64,000 nt of DNA from Chiua virens (taxonomy: Eukaryota; Basidiomycota; Agaricomycetes; Boletales; Boletaceae). A program made the translations under genes and the position numbers. Below the pieces are notes generated by a model that saw only the letters and a list, made by a program, of their open reading frames with translations, was not told the DNA's origin and ran no database searches. Where the stretch lies: the NCBI GenBank assembly GCA_019787685.1, contig JAHNUO010000007.1:806001-870000 (forward strand), written 5' to 3'. This document shows, in pieces, positions 17,550 through 59,081 of this stretch (positions within the stretch are counted from its first letter, which is position 1; every line of letters starts with the position of its first letter).

Positions 17550-18417
17550 TGTAACAACCTAGAACAAACGTAGACTATGAGTTACTTGCGAGTGGTTGTA
17601 GTGGTCAGTGTAAGGTTGAAGTGCAAGTGAGTCTGATGAGTGAGGCGAGAACTACAGAGGTGATCCGTCTATGAGAGACAATGGGGAAAAACCAAAGGTG
17701 AACTTTGTTAGAGTTCCCTTGGTGCTGCATTCAAGTCTTATATACTAAAGGTACAATCGGAGTTACAATCGGAGTGTAACAACCTAGAACAAATGTAGAC
17801 TATGAGTTACTTGTGAGTGGTTGTAGTGGTCAGTGTAAGGGTTGAATGCAAGTGAGTCTGACGAGTGAGGCAAGAACTACAGAGGTGATCCATCTATGAG
17901 AGACAATGGGGGAAAACCAAAGGTGAACTTTGTTAGAGTTCCCTTGGTGCTGCATTCAAGTCTTATATACTAAAAGTACAATCGGAGCTACAATCGGAGT
18001 ATGAATACATAGATAAGTATGAGTGTCCTGATTGGTAGATAAGGTGAGATAACATGAGGTATTTGCATGTATGTGAGTCATAGATAAAGACATGAGGAAA
18101 CAATGCTGTAACAATGCGGTATAAGCATGTTATGAGATAAGCACTGCTTTAATAATAGATATGAGTCATAGGGAATCATAGATAAGAGATAACGTGTGAA
18201 TACATGTGTGTTGTGCATGGGTTATGACATCGTGAGATAACATGTGTCTAATAATGAATCATAGTGAGTCATAAAGTATTGGCCAATAGGATATGATCCT
18301 GAGTATAGCCTTGGCATGAGGCAATATATGCCATAATAGATATTATGTATCTTGTATAGTGGATGAGAGAATGAGTAGGAAGGCGAAATGAATTATGAGT
18401 GAAACGTGATTGTAACA
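17550..18417. repeat. right LTR (17775-18417) preceded by a partial LTR copy (17550-17774)
   Basis: The first 225 bases of the LTR are present, then at GGAG a complete LTR starts again with TGTAACAACC. The flanking CAAAT matches across the whole unit, so the duplication existed at or arose after insertion within the element. It is not a nested LTR insertion, because no second duplication follows. Confidence 0.85.
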
Positions 18418-28848: not shown

Positions 28849-30765
28849 ATGACTACCTGCTCTGACACCAATCGACGATGTGTAACGCTGTCAAATCCAT
28901 ACGCCTATGTGGGAGAACAATCCATCAATGCGCCTCCGACATCCCACCCTGCTCTGCAAGACCAGTCGGCGGCAGGCAATTCAGCTGGGTTATTCGCTGA
29001 TAGATTTGCGGATCCTACCATTCCGTCCAACCAATATCCCCCACCATATCCCACGAGTTAGTATCTGTTGTCAGAACAGCTCGAGTATCACACAAATCCC
29101 ACCATGATGGCATCCTCGTCTACACAGCCTTCCGATACAAGTTATCCGCCATCGTACTCTGTTATCGATCCCTCAATGCCATCCTATGGCCCTGTAGGCC
29201 AACATCCACCGGCACACACTGGCACTTCCGCTCCAGCATATCTACATGCTCCCATCCCAACATATCCCGTGGGTTACATAGCAGGCCGGCCCTCGGTATA
29301 CAATCCCATTCGAAGCCACATGTTGTGTTTGAGCAGTAGAGCCCCAGCATCGTTGCGTAGTCTCCGCGCCGATATCGCCCCCTATGTGGTACCAAGTATG
29401 TGATTCGCGCCTGCTTATGCACATGACAACCAGAATGAGGGTGTCCATCGCGAGGTCATCACTGTGGGGATATTCAATGTGAAGTTTGTTTTCTTCACAA
29501 TGAAATGAGCGCTGATTTTCCTTGCAGACCACCATGGACATACCATTCTCAACTGCGCTGTTGATGACTAACTCGGCCTCTGTGTTCAATGTGAAGATCA
29601 TTTCCTTCACAATGAAATCAGACTGACTTTCTCCTACAGACTACTGTGGACGTACCCTGCACAACTGCGCCATCGATGACTAACCCGGCCCCTGTGTTCA
29701 ATGTGAAGGTCATTTCCTTCATGATGAAATCAGACTGATTTTCTACTGCAGGGTGGGACGGATATACCCTTCTTGGTGATGTGGCAACATCAACTAACCT
29801 GGCTGGGCCAGCCCCCATGTCCAACGTGAACCTATTTTCCTTCACGGTGAAATCAGGCTGATTTTCTACTGCAGCCGGAGATAGAACCAACACTGATCCC
29901 TTCAGATCCATCCCAAGCACAACCATCAGCGGCCTCGACAGCGCCGCCGACACCTAGCCTGGCCCCTACTCCTGCCGAAGTCGAACGGATTACTGTACGA
30001 GCCAGAGAGAAGATCAAGAGCATGGTCATGTGCACAAAGTGGTCCATCTCACAAGAGAATTGTCTAGACACACTGCGGAGTGCAGCTGCGGAAATCATGG
30101 GTAAGTGAAAGACAATTCATAAGCACACCTTTAACAAGCATTTCAGGAAACTCCAACCATGCGAACCCTGGGCTGTACGAAAAGAATGCAGCAGGTATTT
30201 CGGGGGTCACAACTGCAACAAGAAAGCTGTTCAAGGACGCTGCTCGCGGGTTGATCCATGAGGCTTACAGCCTCCGACCAGCAGTTAAAGGCTCCAACCC
30301 CCTGGTGGAGGTGGAAGCCAAGCAATCTCTCATCCCACAGCTACTGGAGAACGATCGGTTGCTGCATACCTTGAATTCAGTGAGTTTTCCAGTGCGTTTT
30401 GCATTTACAATGCTCAACCTACTTGATTTATATAGGATGGTACGGTCGCCGGAATGTTCGAGCATCCGGCGCTTGCTTCCATTGCCCTAAACACAGTATG
30501 GATAGGAAACTTATGAAGATATCTAGAAAACACACCCAAAGGCTTCGCTCATATGATCGCACGTTGTACAAGTGCGATCTACTCTGCTCTGTTGGAGCAT
30601 CGCACTGGACGGTTCGAACCTGTTGGGTTCTCGGCTGTGAGTGCACAGCAGGTTTATGAGCGTACATTTAATTCTCTCACTTGCGATTTCGAGGCACAGC
30701 TTCTTGCTCTACGAGAGGATATCATCTGTTGTGGCGATACTCTTGTACCTACTTCAGCTACGTAG
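28849..30765 (+). pseudogene. DUF6532-like protein with disordered N-terminus and tandem exon-intron modules; three in-frame stops
   Basis: The N-terminal part is rich in S, P, T and Y (PSYSVIDPSMPSYGPVGQHP). The C-terminal domain begins AEVERITVRAREKIKSMV and continues KLFKDAARGLIHEAYSLRP, GMFEHPALASIALNTVW and LLEHRTGRFEPVGFS, the pattern of DUF6532. Introns lie at about 30101-30146 and 30379-30435. The middle holds four equal 49-nt introns (29479-29874). One frame runs throughout, except for TAG at 29059, TGA at 29401 and TGA at 30514, plus a shift in the third repeat exon. DUF6532 has no known function; it is common in mushroom repeats. Confidence 0.65.
29479..29874 (+). repeat. tandem exon-intron modules: four 49-nt introns, 63-nt exons
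   Basis: Introns at 29479-29527, 29591-29639, 29703-29751 and 29826-29874 are all 49 nt, start GTGAAG or GTGAAC, contain CTGAC/CTGAT 10-13 nt before the end and finish in TACAG or TGCAG. The two complete exons between them (29528-29590, 29640-29702) are 63 nt each, phase 0, and encode related 21-residue blocks ending in VFN. The third (29752-29825) is 74 nt and shifts the frame. Confidence 0.8.
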
Positions 30766-50081: not shown

Positions 50082-51960
50082 ATGGCTGCCGGAGCTAATT
50101 CGCAGTTATCTACGACGCGAACACAAACGCTTTACTGTGCGCCAGTGGCTCGCTCCCGATCCTTCACAGGCCTCCCTACCAGTGCAACTGAGACTCCAGG
50201 TAATACGCGGGCAAAAGTCTGCGCTCGAGTGCGACTGATGAACGCTTCGCTCAGCGTGCACGCCATCTCATCAACATGGACGGCTGGATAACCTACCATG
50301 CTCTCCCAACAACCAAACGATCAATGTCATACTTTTTGGTGACGCAGGCGTCGGGAAAAGTGCAGTCATCAACCTCATTGCGCAGCGTGAAGTGGCGAAA
50401 GTCTCGACAGATGCTCAGCCCTGCACGCTACAAACAAACTGCTATGAGATTGCTTTCGATGAGATCAACTTCAGAATATTCGACACCGTCGGTCTTGATG
50501 CAACTCGAATCTCAAGCGATAACTATGTGAAAACTCTCATAAAAGGTTTCAAACTCATCACCGACTTGGCTGCTGCTGGCGGAGTCCATCTCCTGGTGTT
50601 TGTCATGCGCAAAGGCAGAATAACGGCGACGATGCAAAGCAATTACTTACTGTTTAGAGAAGCTGTTTGCCAGGCAAAGGTACCTACAGTACTCGTTATC
50701 ACTCATCTTGAAGAGGAGGTACAAATGGAAGACTGGTGGATCAGGAACAAGCACGGCATTGAATCCTACGATATCAGGAGTGACGGCCATGCATGCGTTA
50801 CCACGGTCTCCGATTATACCCCTGGCACAGATCTCAAATATACAGAGTCCCAAAGGATCATTCGTGAACTTTTGAAGGACCGTTGCCGCAAAGGCGAAGG
50901 ATTTCTTCCTGAAGTCCATTCTTGGATTACTCGTCTTGGGAAAGGGTTGCGACTCTTCATGAAGGGGAAGCGGAACACAAAGAGAGCGGATGTGATGAGG
51001 GTGTTGATGGATAATTGCAAGCTGGACCAAATCACGGCGAGGAAGCTCGCAGACAGGATGGAACTTCAAAACCTATGTGAAGATGGAGGAGATCAGCAGG
51101 ACAGAAACGACGAGGGTGGAGTGGAGACAGATGCTGAGCTTCGAAGGGATACGCTGATGAGTGACATTCGGTCCCAGTTTCCTCACGATCTCACCGGTCG
51201 TGTCAGAAGATCTGATAGTTTTCCATTCGCGTCGGGAAGCTGCGGAGATATCTATAGAGGTATTTTCACCCTACATGAGAAATCAATTCAGGTATGTGAC
51301 AACATGTTTTCGATGCGGGAAGCTGAACGGGTGTAGGTTGCAATCAAAACATGCAGGGTGTACTTGCAGTATGACGAGCACCTGGAGAATGGGAAGAAGG
51401 TGTGTGTTGGCCCAGAAGTCATGCATGAGTTTGTCCTGTTAACTACAAACAGCGATTTCGCAGAGAGATTGCTGTATGGGTGACTCTGGAGCACCCGAAC
51501 GTTTTGCCATTACTGGGTATCATTAGGGACCCCAATTTAAACCCTGAGATACCTGCTATGGTATGTCCGTGGGTCGAGAATGGCACATTGTCATTATACC
51601 TCGAGAGAAATAAGGAGTTGATCATCTCAAAAAGACTTGGCTTGGTGAGTACTCCAAGTCAGCATTCACGATTCAAGAGTTGTTGAATATGTTGTTTCAG
51701 GTTAATGACATAGCCCACGGTTTACAATACTGTAGGTCAGATTCCTACAGCTCTCACGTGTCTAATAGGAGATATTCTGTTTTAAAGTGCATTCCAAGCA
51801 AATTGTCCATGGCGATCTATCAGGTGTATGTAATTGTTCTGCCAGGCTGCTACCCGCTCACTTTCTAAAATGAGTAGTCAAATGTACTTGTCCGTGCAGA
51901 TGGAAGCGCTTGCATTGCCGACTTTGGGTTGTCCACCTTGTTGACACGTATAGGGGGTTC
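50082..51960 (+). pseudogene. AIG1/GIMAP-like GTPase fused to a protein kinase; kinase C-lobe incomplete
   Basis: Exons 50082-50199, 50255-51291, 51337-51399, 51453 to about 51643, 51701-51731, 51788-51823 and a last one near 51890. The GTPase has P-loop LFGDAGVGKSAVINLIA, G3 FRIFDTVGLDATR and VLVITHLEEE at the G4 position (no NKxD). The kinase follows about residue 340: ASGSCGDIYRGIF (glycine loop), VAIKTCRVYLQ (lysine), EHPNVLPLLGI, catalytic HSKQIVHGDLSG and ADGSACIADFGLS (DFG). Between the last two a one-base mismatch breaks the frame, and after DFGLSTL the domain ends early. The kinase start matches that of the HET-kinase at 11062, so the two are paralogues with different N-terminal modules. 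Confidence 0.8.
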
Positions 51961-52074
51961 GACATTCTCCCTGCGGGATGAGAACCTAAAGCTGGAGAAG
52001 AGAGTGAAATGACCGAGGGACAGGTGCATGAAGGTGTCGCAATAATCAAGGCGTTCTGAGGTATCTCTTTTCTT

Positions 52075-53295: not shown

Positions 53296-56200
53296 ATGCA
53301 GATCGACGATATCAGACAGAAATTTGGGCAGTTCCGAATCCTTGTCATCGGACGGGCCAACGCTGGGAAGACGACACTTCTCAAGCAAATCTGTAATTCG
53401 AAGGAGAATCCAGAGATCTATGACGGAGCAGGGAAAAAGGTATGTTTGTATGCCAACCTGGGATTTCTGATCTCACAGGTGGACTGATGGCCTGTGATCA
53501 GGTCGATCTGGCACAGATCGAAGAGTCTGCGGAGGTGAATACCAGGTTTAGACATCAACCCTCGTTATCACGATCTCACATGTCCCAAGCGGGGAGAACA
53601 CAATATCGAGAATGAGATGGTCTTTCAAAGTAACCCCGGTTTTGTCTTCCATGACTCCCGTGGGTTTGAAGCCGGTAGTGTCGACGAGTTTAACAAGATG
53701 AAGGACTTTGTCGCCGAGCGAGCTAAGATGACATTCCTCAAGAAGCGTGTCCACGCTATATGGTAAACACAGATCCATTTATGACGTGCTAACCACAACT
53801 GTTGTTGTATAGGTACTGTATCCCGATGGATCAGATACACCGCGCTATCTTGACCGCGGAGGAAAAGTTTTTTGATGAATGTGAAACAGGAAATGGTAGG
53901 CTTTTCTTAAATGTCCATTCATTGTTTTATTTTTATTGTACTTTCGGGACAGTACCTGTTGTGGTTCTGTTCACAAAATGTGATGCATTGCGAGTGTTGG
54001 CAGTGGCTGCATTGACAGCCGAGGACAAGAAACTACCTGAGCAGGAAAGACTTGCCAAGGTGAAGGAAGTCGAGGAAAGCATGGTAAAGAATAGTACAAT
54101 TTGGGAAAGATTGCAAAAAAGGAAAAATCCCCCAAAAGTGTATGCTGAAGTCAAAGGTCTGTATGAAACTGGGGTTGATATACAGGTATCTCACTATGTG
54201 AATTTTTTGCAGATATGCAGAAATCCAATGAAGGATGCAGGATTGTGCTAGAAAAGACTGCAGCTGCTTTGAATGATGAAAGTTTGGAGATGCTGTTTGT
54301 GACCACACAAAATGCAAACATCATGCTTTGTGTGAAATATGCTGTTGACAGGTATGTGACCCTTTATTAATGTTCAGGATTGTTTAGTGAATTACACATG
54401 ATATATGTCATAGAACCTTGGTGCCATTCATTGGTGGCAAATTGTCTCCAGTAGGAAGATTTGATCAGAAAGAGCAAGAGTCCTTGATGAGAAGAATGGG
54501 TATATGGTTCCCACATGTCAATGTAAGAAAGTGTGGAATTTCTATATGGATGTGAAGTGCTTACAAATATTGGCAGGTAAGAAATGTGATCAAATTGAGA
54601 AATGAAGAGGTTTTGATACATGTCCATTGGTGTTATGTCTGCTCCCATGTTCTCTCATTCATAGGCTGTAAGTGGTCTGACTGTTCTTGGAGGTCTCAGA
54701 GTGATTCTGATCCATGTCCATGTCTGCTCCCACCATGTTCTCTCATTCATAGGATGTAAGTGGTCTGACTGTTCTTGGAGGTCTCAGAGTGATTCTGATC
54801 CATGTCCATGTCTGCTCCCACCATGTTCTCTCATTCATAGGGAGTAAGTGGTCTGACTGTTCCTGGAGGTCTCAGAGTGATTCTGATCCATGTCCATGTC
54901 TGCTCCCACCATGTTCTCTCATTCATAGCTTGTAAGTGGTCTGACTGTTCCTGGAGGTCTCAGAGTGATTCTGATCCATGTCCATGTCTGCTCCCACCAT
55001 GTTCTCTCATTCATAGTATGTAAGTGGTCTGACTGTTCTTGGAGGTCTCAGAGTGATTCTGATCCATGTCCATGTCTGCTCCCACCATGTTCTCTCATTC
55101 ATAGCAAGTAAGTGGTCTGACTGTTCTTGGAGGTCTCAGAGTGATTCTGATCCATGTCCATGTCTGCTCCCACCATGTTCTCTCATTCATAGTATGTAAG
55201 TGGTCTGACTGTTCTTGGAGGTCTCAGAGTGATTCTGATCCATGTCCATGTCTGCTCCCACCATGTTCTCTCATTCATAGGCTGTAAGTGGTCTGACTGT
55301 TCTTGGAGGTCTCAGAGTGATTCTGATCCATGTCCATGTCTGCTCCCACCATGTTCTCTCATTCATAGTATGTAAGTGGTCTGACTGTTCCTGGAGGTCT
55401 CAGAGTGATTCTGATCCATGTCCATGTCTGCTCCCACCATGTTCTCTCATTCATAGCAAGTAAGTGGTCTGACTGTTCCTGGAGGTCTCAGAGTGATTCT
55501 GATCCATGTCCATGTCTGCTCCCACCATGTTCTCTCATTCATAGGATGTAAGTGGTCTGACTGTTCTTGGAGGTCTCAGAGTGATTCTGATCCATGTCCA
55601 TGTCTGCTCCCACCATGTTCTCTCATTCATAGGATGTAAGTGGTCTGACTGTTCTTGGAGGTCTCAGAGTGATTCTGATCCATGTCCATGTCTGCTCCCA
55701 CCATGTTCTCTCATTCACAGATTGTAAGTGGTCTGACTGTTCTTGGAGGTCTCAGAGTGATTCTGATCCATGTCCACGTCTGCTCCCACCATGTTCTCTC
55801 ATTCATAGGATGTAAGTGGTCTGACTGTTCTTGGAGGTCTCAGAGTGATTCTGATCCATGTCCATGTCTGCTCCCACCATGTTCTCTCATTCATAGGCTG
55901 TAAGTGGTCTGACTGTTCTTGGAGGTCTCAGAGTGATTCTGATCCATGTCCATGTCTGCTCCCACCATGTTCTCTCATTCATAGGAAGTAAGTGGTCTGA
56001 CTGTTCTTGGAGGTCTCAGAGTGATTCTGATCCATGTCCATGTCTGCTCCCACCATGTTCTCTCATTCATAGTATGTAAGTGGTCTGACTGTTCCTGGAG
56101 GTCTCAGAGTGATTCTGATCCATGTCCATGTCTGCTCCCACCATGTTCTCTCATTCATAGCAAGTAAGTGGTCTGACTGTTCCTGGAGGTCTCAGAGTGA

Positions 56201-59081
56201 TTCTGATCCATGTCCATGTCTGCTCCCACCATGTTCTCTCATTCATAGGATGTAAGTGGTCTGACTGTTCTTGGAGGTCTCAGAGTGATTCTGATCCATG
56301 TCCATGTCTGCTCCCACCATGTTCTCTCATTCATAGGATGTAAGTGGTCTGACTGTTCTTGGAGGTCTCAGAGTGATTCTGATCCATGTCCATGTCTGCT
56401 CCCACCATGTTCTCTCATTCACAGATTGTAAGTGGTCTGACTGTTCTTGGAGGTCTCAGAGTGATTCTGATCCATGTCCATGTCTGCTCCCACCATGTTC
56501 TCTCATTCATAGGAAGTAAGTGGTCTGACTGTTCCTGGAGGTCTCAGAGTGATTCTGATCCATGTCCATGTCTGCTCCCACCATGTTCTCTCATTCATAG
56601 ATTGTAAGTGGTCTGACTGTTCTTGGAGGTCTCAGAGTGATTCTGATCCATGTCCATGTCTGCTCTCACCATGTTCTCTCATTCATAGGCTGTAAGTGGT
56701 CTGACTGTTCTTGGAGGTCTCAGAGTGATTCTGATCCATGTCCATGTCTGCTCCCACCATGTTCTCTCATTCATAGGATGTAAGTGGTCTGACTGTTCTT
56801 GGAGGTCTCAGAGTGATTCTGATCCATGTCCATGTCTTCTTCCACCATGTTCTCTCATTCATAGCATGTAAGTGGTCTGACTGTTCTTGGAGGTCTCAGA
56901 GTGATTCTGATCCATGTCCATGTCTGCTCCCACCATGTTCTCTCATTCATAGCTTGTAAGTGGTCTGACTGTTCCTGGAGGTCTCAGAGTGATTCTGATC
57001 CATGTCCATGTCTGCTCCCACCATGTTCTGTCATTCATAGGCTGTAAGTGGTCTGACTGTTCTTGGAGGTCTCAGAGTGATTCTGATCCATGTCCATGTC
57101 TGCTCCCACCATGTTCTGTCATTCATAGGCTGTAAGTGGTCTGACTGTTCTTGGAGGTCTCAGAGTGATTCTGATCCATGTCCATGTCTGCTCCCACCAT
57201 GTTCTCTCATTCATAGCTTGTAAGTGGTCTGACTGTTCTTGGAGGTCTCAGAGTGATTCTGATCCATGTCCATGTCTGCTCCCACCATGTTCTCTCATTC
57301 ATAGATTGTAAGTGGTCTGACTGTTCTTGGAGGTCTCAGAGTGATTCTGATCCATGTCCATGTCTGCTCCCACCATGTTCTCTCATTCATAGGCTGTAAG
57401 TGGTCTGACTGTTCTTGGAGGTCTCAGAGTGATTCTGATCCATGTCCATGTCTGCTCCCACCATGTTCTCTCATTCATAGCTTGTAAGTGGTCTGACTGT
57501 TCTTGGAGGTCTCAGAGTGATTCTGATCCATGTCCATGTCTGCTCCCACCATGTTCTCTCATTCATAGTATGTAAGTGGTCTGACTGTTCTTGGAGGTCT
57601 CAGAGTGATTCTGATCCATGTCCATGTCTGCTCCCACCATGTTCTCTCATTCATAGCATGTAAGTGGTCTGACTGTTCTTGGAGATCTCAGAGTGATTCT
57701 GATCCATGTCCATGTCTGCTCCCACCATGTTCTCTCATTCATAGGATGTAAGTGGTCTGACTGTTCTTGGAGGTCTCAGAGTGATTCTGATCCATGTCCA
57801 CGTCTGCTCCCACCATGTTCTCTCATTCATAGGATGTAAGTGGTCTGACTGTTCTTGGAGGTCTCAGAGTGATTCTGATCCATGTCCATGTCTGCTCCCA
57901 CCATGTTCTCTCATTCATAGGCTGTAAGTGGTCTGACTGTTCTTGGAGGTCTCAGAGTGATTCTGATCCATGTCCATGTCTGCTCCCACCATGTTCTCTC
58001 ATTCATAGGAAGTAAGTGGTCTGACTGTTCTTGGAGGTCTCAGAGTGATTCTGATCCATGTCCATGTCTGCTCCCACCATGTTCTCTCATTCATAGTATG
58101 TAAGTGGTCTGACTGTTCTTGGAGGTCTCAGAGTGATTCTGATCCATGTCCATGTCTGCTCCCACCATGTTCTCTCATTCATAGGCTGTAAGTGGTCTGA
58201 CTGTTCTTGGAGGTCTCAGAGTGATTCTGATCCATGTCCATGTCTGCTCCCACCATGCTCTCTCATTCATAGCTTGTAAGTCTTAGTTACAAGTTATTCA
58301 ATCCATCTTGCTCCCTCTAATATCCCTCAGGATGTAAGACATCTTTGAAGCCTTGTATGCAATATCATTGAATACTCTTTTTGTGCTATCTCCATTTTCT
58401 AGAAGGTGAAACCAAATCATTCTCTTTTTTTACTTCATTTTCATCTTTATTTTGCAGGAGGTTTGTTGTACTATCTCACTTTCACCAAATCAGTGATTAA
58501 TGTCATTTCATATAGTTGCTACACTCTCCACAGGTATTTTTATTTATCAAGTTTCTTATATTTAGATTTAAATTCTCACATTATTTTACATCAGGACCAA
58601 GTTCCATATGGTGCCACAGCACACTCAACACCCTCAAAATCAATGGTATGTGCACTATTTTCATGCTAGAGCACGTTTCAAATTCCCACAATACCTTGCA
58701 CAATTCAGTTCCCATGGACCTTGAAACCATGGAAAAAAGCCCTTTTGTTGGGCATTGGTCAGTCTTGTTTGGTATCCCATTCCCACCCCTTCAATATCTG
58801 TATAGATTCTGTCATCATTATGGTGCATTCCTTCCATCTCCACCAGCAAGGCAATCCAGAATCAGTTGCAACTGCTGCCAGATTGTACAAATCATCTGGC
58901 ACATGTGCCAAAGTTCAACAAGCAGTCACTCTGCTAGCTGATCAACACAATCCCAAAGACACAGAGGGGATGACAGTGGCAATCATGGATCTGATTTCGA
59001 AGAATCTCATATGTAAGTCACACTTTTGTGCAATTGTACATGTTGATTAAACAAACTTTAGCTATGAATATCTCTGTGTGA
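53296..59081 (+). CDS. P-loop GTPase with an array of single-codon micro-exons
   Basis: Exons 53296-53439, 53502-53762, 53813-53895, 53953-54156, 54213-54351 and 54414-54522 encode the GTPase: G1 LVIGRANAGKTTLLKQI, G3 FVFHDSRGFEAG, YCIPMD, G4 VLFTKCDAL, then FVTTQNANIMLCVKYAVDR. After PHVN (phase 0) comes the array: 42 three-base exons at 54665 + 88k, then GAT 58331-58333, AAG 58403-58405, GAG 58458-58460, an 18-nt exon 58516-58533, and exons 58595-58645, 58709-59012 and 59062-59081 (stop TGA). Every splice phase fits except inside exon 2, where about ten extra bases near 53540 shift the frame (sequence error, unnoticed splice event or damage). Similar GTPases are abundant in mushrooms; the array is not known to me in any. 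Confidence 0.75.
54577..58275 (+). repeat. 88-bp tandem array: 41 near-identical 85-nt introns separated by variable triplets
   Basis: The unit is GTAAGTGGTCTGACTG ... TCTCATTCATAG (85 bases) plus three bases. Triplets start at 54665 and recur every 88 bases to 58273, 42 in all. By codon: GCT at units 1, 8, 15, 24, 28, 29, 32, 38, 41; GAT at 2, 11, 12, 14, 19, 20, 25, 36, 37; TAT at 5, 7, 9, 17, 34, 40; CTT at 4, 27, 30, 33, 42; ATT at 13, 21, 23, 31; CAA at 6, 10, 18; GAA at 16, 22, 39; CAT at 26, 35; GGA at 3. The first intron (54577-54664) is a diverged relative that keeps only the 3' part. Since 88 is not a multiple of three and stops occur in every frame, it is not a protein repeat. Confidence 0.95.

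Follow-up and report, generated by a model that had tools for sequence, protein, structure and literature searches.

Arrays of predicted single-codon exons between near-identical introns in a GTPase gene family of the bolete Chiua virens

Near-identical repeats that evolve in concert are known from the het-d and het-e genes (HNWD) of Podospora anserina, whose WD40 repeats are exchanged both inside a locus and from one locus to another (PMC1805685 and PMC12222747, each in part) and carry four residues per repeat that are under diversifying selection (PMC1805685, in part). The arrays described here resemble these genes in having near-identical tandem units within and between paralogues, hypervariable codons, putative exchange of units and varying repeat number, all in fungal nucleotide-binding proteins. 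The units of het-d and het-e are coding and each corresponds to a whole protein repeat, whereas the unit considered here is an intron plus one codon, and variation proceeds codon by codon. As in the het-d/het-e type, the units of the bolete arrays are kept alike both in one locus and across loci, and their diversity lies at a few codons. By analogy, het-d and het-e would be the closest counterpart in working, with the GTPase family not itself a member: three proteins of the family (P0001, P0004 and P0048), scanned against Pfam, yielded no match to NACHT, NB-ARC, WD40, ANK or TPR and returned GTPase families only.

Other described systems share single features with these arrays. Introners and introner-like elements supply many near-identical spliceosomal introns to one genome, in hosts that include fungi (PMC9860276, PMC4457414 and PMC3879977, each in part), and are accompanied by target duplications of 3 to 9 bp or by terminal inverted repeats (PMC9860276, in part). 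They are dispersed over many genes, whereas the copies inspected here stand in tandem, one codon apart, within one gene family. Exons as short as a single nucleotide (Arabidopsis APC11; PMC4674806, in part) or 3 bp (Drosophila homothorax; PMC7392893, in part) can be spliced in, but these are lone exons between unrelated introns and form no arrays. In filamentous fungi, Trichoderma Xlr2 has a functional microexon, reportedly the first to be described (PMC11121469, in part); it is one regulated exon, again with no array. The aphid bicycle genes form a large family that evolves fast and in which small internal exons are numerous and share one phase, mainly phase 2, with an average of about 17 exons per gene (PMC9168663, in part), but they are insect genes, whereas the gene modeled here encodes a GTPase-like protein and has 45 of its 55 exons at 3 nt, in phase 0 and between near-identical introns. 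A search of the open-licence PMC literature found no description of arrays of single-codon exons, in agreement with an initial annotation of this DNA, which knew of no gene with such a layout. We rate the gene architecture as new and its mode of evolution as akin to one already known.

The window is a stretch of 64,000 nt from the genome of Chiua virens, a member of the Boletaceae in the order Boletales (GCA_019787685.1, contig JAHNUO010000007.1, plus strand), and all coordinates refer to positions within it unless a contig is named. The GTPase gene model, with hand-placed exons, occupies 53296..59050 on the plus strand and comprises 55 exons and 476 codons. Seven ordinary exons (53296..54522; 53296-53439, 53502-53534, 53590-53762, 53813-53895, 53953-54156, 54213-54351 and 54414-54522) encode the G domain and finish with WFPHVN. 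The first intron that follows (54523..54664, 142 nt) is not a repeat unit, and after it comes the array (54665..58275), in which 41 introns, each of 85 nt, alternate with 42 exons of three bases; the predicted peptide is ADGLYQYAYQDDIDAEYQDDIEIADHLAALIALYHDDAEYAL. Its first triplet lies at 54665-54667 and its last at 58273-58275. Beyond a 55-nt intron unrelated to the repeat introns (58276..58330), the model has three more 3-nt exons, also between unrelated introns (58331..58460; GAT at 58331-58333, AAG at 58403-58405 and GAG at 58458-58460), an 18-nt exon placed from splice sites and reading frame (LLHSPQ, 58516..58533), a 51-nt exon (DQVPYGATAHSTPSKSM, 58595..58645) and a last exon that encodes the conserved C-terminal part (58709..59050).

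The array is regular throughout. A motif parse recovered 42 CA[TC]AG-NNN-GTAAG sites delimiting 41 units, every one exactly 88 nt long (85-nt intron plus 3 nt), and Tandem Repeats Finder (TRF) called the same array at 54645-58281 with a period of 88 and 41.3 copies. The initial annotation had placed an array of 42 single-codon micro-exons at 54577..58275; its triplets and its 41 introns of 85 nt stand, and its left limit moves, since 54577-54664 belongs to the first intron, which is no repeat unit. The start, length and spacing that it gave for the blocks between GTAAGT and CATAG are likewise accurate, except that CATAG ends 39 of the 41 introns and CACAG the other two. Its statement that, with splicing as drawn, over forty residues would be encoded one codon per exon holds for the 42 array triplets, to which the three additional 3-nt exons are to be added (45 in the model), and the phase 0 that it assigned to the flanking exons is borne out by the model, in which exon 54414-54522 ends in phase 0 and all subsequent junctions do the same.

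Within the first intron there is an AG/GTAAGA sequence with its junction at 54576/54577 (54575-54578), which may be a zero-length exon or a recursive splice site. By script, AG/G[TC][AG]AG is present within the first intron at 15 of the 17 loci with a recognised exon motif (absent from L039 and L041); by eye, the site is also present in L037 and L040 and not in L034. In L031 and L033, the place of this site reads TAG/CAG/GTAAG, a real 3-nt exon.

The spliced model is open for 476 codons, and every intron is GT-AG or GC-AG. The exon borders of its G domain were set after the paralogue P0001. Over its length, the model can be aligned with the 438-aa protein P0004, which comes from a JGI contig of 1,529 bases; the alignment takes in the C-terminus and the short segment after the array, which reads LDKE in the model and LDRA in P0004. 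Two of the three scanned proteins score above the 21.9-bit cut-off of Pfam PF01926 (MMR_HSR1), P0001 at 28.0 and P0048 at 23.7, with P0004 just below it at 21.8. By eye, the model protein contains GRANAGKTT, DSRG and TKCD, which we take to be the G1, G3 and G4 motifs of P-loop GTPases. These features identify the predicted N-terminal part as a P-loop GTPase of the MMR_HSR1 type. The residues of the last exon, used as a query, had 68 matches in the genome, implying a family of some tens of members.

The array in the window is one of many in this genome (48.3 Mb in 136 contigs searched). In total, 20 arrays were parsed in 20 paralogues with several intron families: that in the window, 8 reached by intron search and 11 at loci from a GTPase search. 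From the hits of the GTPase search, 13 loci were chosen by eye, and 11 of these have an array. In the remaining two, L029 (C28) and L030 (C78), no array is present in the 4 kb fetched downstream of the G-domain match, and the downstream sequences of these two loci are nearly the same by eye, perhaps through a shared insertion. The genome has at least 373 matches to the 85-nt intron of the window and at least 1188 to an 83-nt intron taken from a different array, a set that may overlap the first; among the matches listed, all arrays fetched by an intron query sit in GTPase genes. The exact pattern TTCATAG-NNN-GTAAGT occurs 1484 times in the genome, as opposed to 4 times for the reversed pattern. 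The modal intron length of an array is usually 82 to 85 nt, arrays range from about 7 to 45 codons, and the contigs that bear them are up to 3.6 Mb long.

The composition of the triplets is what coding constraint would produce. In the window array, there are nine kinds of triplet and no stop codon, and the mean pairwise difference per site is 1.0% in introns and 51.7% in triplets. The 493 triplets of the 20 arrays, a few of which are flanking 3-nt exons, fall into 31 kinds and again include no stop, when a mean of 21.4 and never fewer than 10 were expected from 2000 shuffles of bases between triplets within one array; because copied triplets are not independent, the significance of this deficit is overstated. 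Extrapolation of the shuffle rate of the 20 arrays predicts about 64 stops among the 1484 genomic copies of the motif, which contain no TAA, no TAG and 5 TGA. TAT, one base from TAA, occurs 188 times. The five TGA units lie at C2:2553691, C5:275189, C8:1529935, C11:1028466 and C11:1028638, and the genes that contain them may be broken or may skip the unit.

The edges of the units are held constant as the introns change. In a test in which units were found from intron interiors, with array limits and consensus introns taken from the motif-based parse, AG-NNN-GT/GC was recovered by script at 438 of 443 assessable boundaries; 4 more, which lay outside the trimmed stretch tested by script, were recovered by eye, one was broken, and 14 boundaries were skipped. 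Across 425 standard segments, the intron-final AG and the initial G had no changes and the T of GT had 3, with 1 to 25 at other boundary positions. Intron length departed from the array mode in 76 of 453 cases, the exon remaining at 3 nt, and in L036, where introns are 31% diverged, all parsed exons are 3 nt long. The broken unit is in L031 (C1:3497300-3501300), where it forms a 136-nt intron that preserves the frame. L031 has a short array with one degenerate unit and diverged introns, and resembles an array in decay. Constant edges amid drifting introns are what selection for splicing at every unit would predict.

Chance, or a plain satellite, is ruled out by the contrast between introns and triplets, the missing stops and the preserved boundaries. 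The initial annotation had likewise held that a satellite with splice sites at its unit edges is hard to explain by chance, and the 51.7% against 1.0% difference, the absence of stops and the recurrence of the layout at 19 other loci agree with it. The interpretation of the triplets as single-codon exons, with presumed inclusion of each, is supported at the level of sequence by the absent stops, the constraint on splice boundaries, the continuous open model and the residues present in intron-free homologues (below).

Variation among loci is distributed unevenly. Between the eight core loci, the difference is 1.6% for array introns, as opposed to 6.3% for flanking introns present in single copy; taking all loci together, the values are 5.0% and 8.3%. 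Divergence among 13 loci is 5.4% in the exon that precedes the array and about 8% in flanking introns. The lower difference of array introns suggests homogenisation between loci. Codons are diverse, and the longest codon run common to any two of the 20 arrays is 5, leaving a conserved array-encoded peptide unsupported. Most amino acids are written with a single codon throughout an intron family. Alanine and proline codons in 13 arrays are GCT/CCT (37) and never GCA/CCA, and those in the other 7 arrays are GCA/CCA (17) and never GCT/CCT. With synonymous variety so small and the codon set following the family, each codon type seems to go back to a single founding event in its intron family, followed by copying. 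Direct traces of unequal crossover or block duplication are weak: linkage between triplets and intron haplotypes was absent in 12 of 14 tests and nominal in 2, and among 9 arrays tested, only that of the window had repeated codon runs above shuffles (a run of 5, P = 0.04). The residues vary far more than the interleaved introns and synonymous variants are few, a pattern that points to cassettes recombining under diversifying selection.

The explanation that we consider probable is that the codons are spliced in as 3-nt exons, and that cassettes of intron plus codon are reshuffled through their near-identical introns, in frame and under diversifying selection. The spliceosome would remove every near-identical intron and string the 3-nt exons together, so that the GTPase domain would be followed by a stretch of roughly 7 to 45 residues, each specified by an exon of its own. 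On this view, the array would be a tandem of modular cassettes, in which unequal crossover or gene conversion inside introns could add, remove or swap whole residues; because the cassettes are in phase 0 and the introns near-identical, such exchange would never shift the frame. Rather than arising by fresh mutation, each codon type would have a single origin and would spread among units and paralogues through copying and reshuffling. Homogenised introns with codon variety maintained imply diversifying or balancing selection on the residues, and the tract probably serves this expanded family of GTPases as a rapidly evolving surface for recognition, and would be comparable in its working to the WD40 sensor repeats that are reshuffled in het-d and het-e. 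Sequence comparison supports the coding constraint, the splice-site constraint at each unit, the family-wide occurrence and the hypervariability; from these we infer that the exons are constitutively included in Chiua, that recombination reshuffles the cassettes, that selection is diversifying and that the tract functions in recognition.

The main rival explanation, which we regard as unlikely, accepts that the triplets are coding and spliced as drawn but has the introns inserted or replaced within an existing codon tract, either by an introner-like burst or by the copying of excised introns into sibling sites. Such an origin would fit L038, in which 26 introns of 83 nt are identical, the triplets are diverse and repeated codon runs are not significant (P = 0.09), as well as L032, whose modal intron has a base missing from other arrays of its family and which contains several codon types. 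Insertion would, however, need an exact phase-0 hit at every codon boundary, neither the 3- to 9-bp target duplications nor the terminal inverted repeats of introners (PMC9860276, in part) are evident by eye in the units, and codon sets track the intron family. Recombination with selection is our preference over insertion or replacement as the source of identical introns with diverse codons.

Reshuffling under selection is compatible with a further possibility, to which we assign a small likelihood, that the array is a bank of cassettes for alternative splicing, different transcripts taking up different subsets of codons so that one gene would yield many tracts. Any subset of phase-0 cassettes would remain in frame, but donors and acceptors are near-uniform and offer no visible basis for choice.

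Very unlikely is the alternative raised in the initial annotation, that splicing takes out the whole array as a single large intron spanning 54523 to 58515 or 58594, with non-coding triplets and with splice-like edges that are simply repeat edges. The direct junctions would also be in phase 0, and in some annotated Suillus models little separates the two flanks. Removal of the array as a whole leaves unexplained the open model, the near absence of stops, the AG, GT and 3-nt spacing kept at 442 of 443 boundaries (438 by script, 4 by eye) despite intron drift, and the residues found at the array position in homologues. Intron-free homologues with tracts after WFPH include P0004 (ERFEVFREFVFEFA), P0048 (ARYYYDDVRDLDVLDLLRDLDVLLLL), P0121 (33 residues), P0034, P0122 and P0126. 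Their contigs (1-2 kb) would be transcripts, judging by their long intron-free open reading frames, and the tracts are known as residues alone. P0121 and the searched region of P0048, both from Suillus-like relatives, are 75% identical with the tract included, and the two tracts barely align. The pooled array composition clearly fits two of the six homologue tracts and is near neutral for the other four. Lysine, asparagine, methionine, cysteine, tryptophan, serine and threonine make up 11 of 144 tract residues, as opposed to 27% of whole proteins. By eye, the tracts of P0019 and P0028 are of more ordinary composition.

Several annotated Suillus models, among them P0045, P0068, P0099 and P0041, have little or no tract between WFPH and the C-terminus and speak against the reading of the array as spliced single-codon exons; they could reflect gaps in prediction, real skipping or array-free genes. 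Also against this reading are the limited fit of the pooled composition, the tracts of P0019 and P0028, the five TGA units and the broken unit of L031. A WFPH-like motif was found in 61 of 126 retrieved proteins, and 45 of these 61 end within 60 residues of it, so the C-terminal halves of the family may be missing from bolete databases.

Targeted hypermutation of the triplets, again spliced as drawn, might account for their differing about 50 times more than the introns in the window array, but we think it highly improbable and disfavoured by the scarcity of synonymous triplets. Third positions in the 1484 genomic copies are C in 3 and G in 41, 29 of which are TGG; among the 493 parsed triplets, 16 end in G and none in C. 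A C before the donor GT creates a CpG, and triplets ending in C may decay, which weakens the argument from their scarcity; such CpG loss could mimic part of the signal against hypermutation. That the number or order of units is an artefact of assembly, to which near-identical repeats are open and for which short-read assemblies of het-d and het-e have proved unreliable (PMC12222747, in part), is hardly credible given 20 loci with differing triplet strings and intron families, introns 31% diverged in L036 and contigs of up to 3.6 Mb, and single unit counts could be off.

If these genes are spliced as drawn, up to about 45 consecutive one-codon exons would be joined in one gene, and the pairing of sites around exons too short to be bound from both sides becomes testable, with ordered splicing, intron definition and recursive sites as candidates. 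The introns would act as frame-safe recombination spacers, the protein being edited codon by codon, and would give each codon an adjacent non-coding control against which selection could be measured. We give about an even chance to the broadest form of this proposal, a genome-wide codon-cassette system in which at least some 1,500 single-codon exons, spread over tens of GTPase genes, serve as an interchangeable amino-acid alphabet, rewritten by intron recombination without risk to the frame, such that a fungal recognition repertoire evolves residue by residue and the spliceosome joins 40 or more consecutive 3-nt exons.

Elsewhere in the window, reading frames that by eye resemble protein kinases lie upstream of the GTPase gene (51000-52000), and two other tandem repeats occur at 17550-18000 (225 bp, 2.0 copies) and 29473-29751 (112 bp, 2.5 copies).
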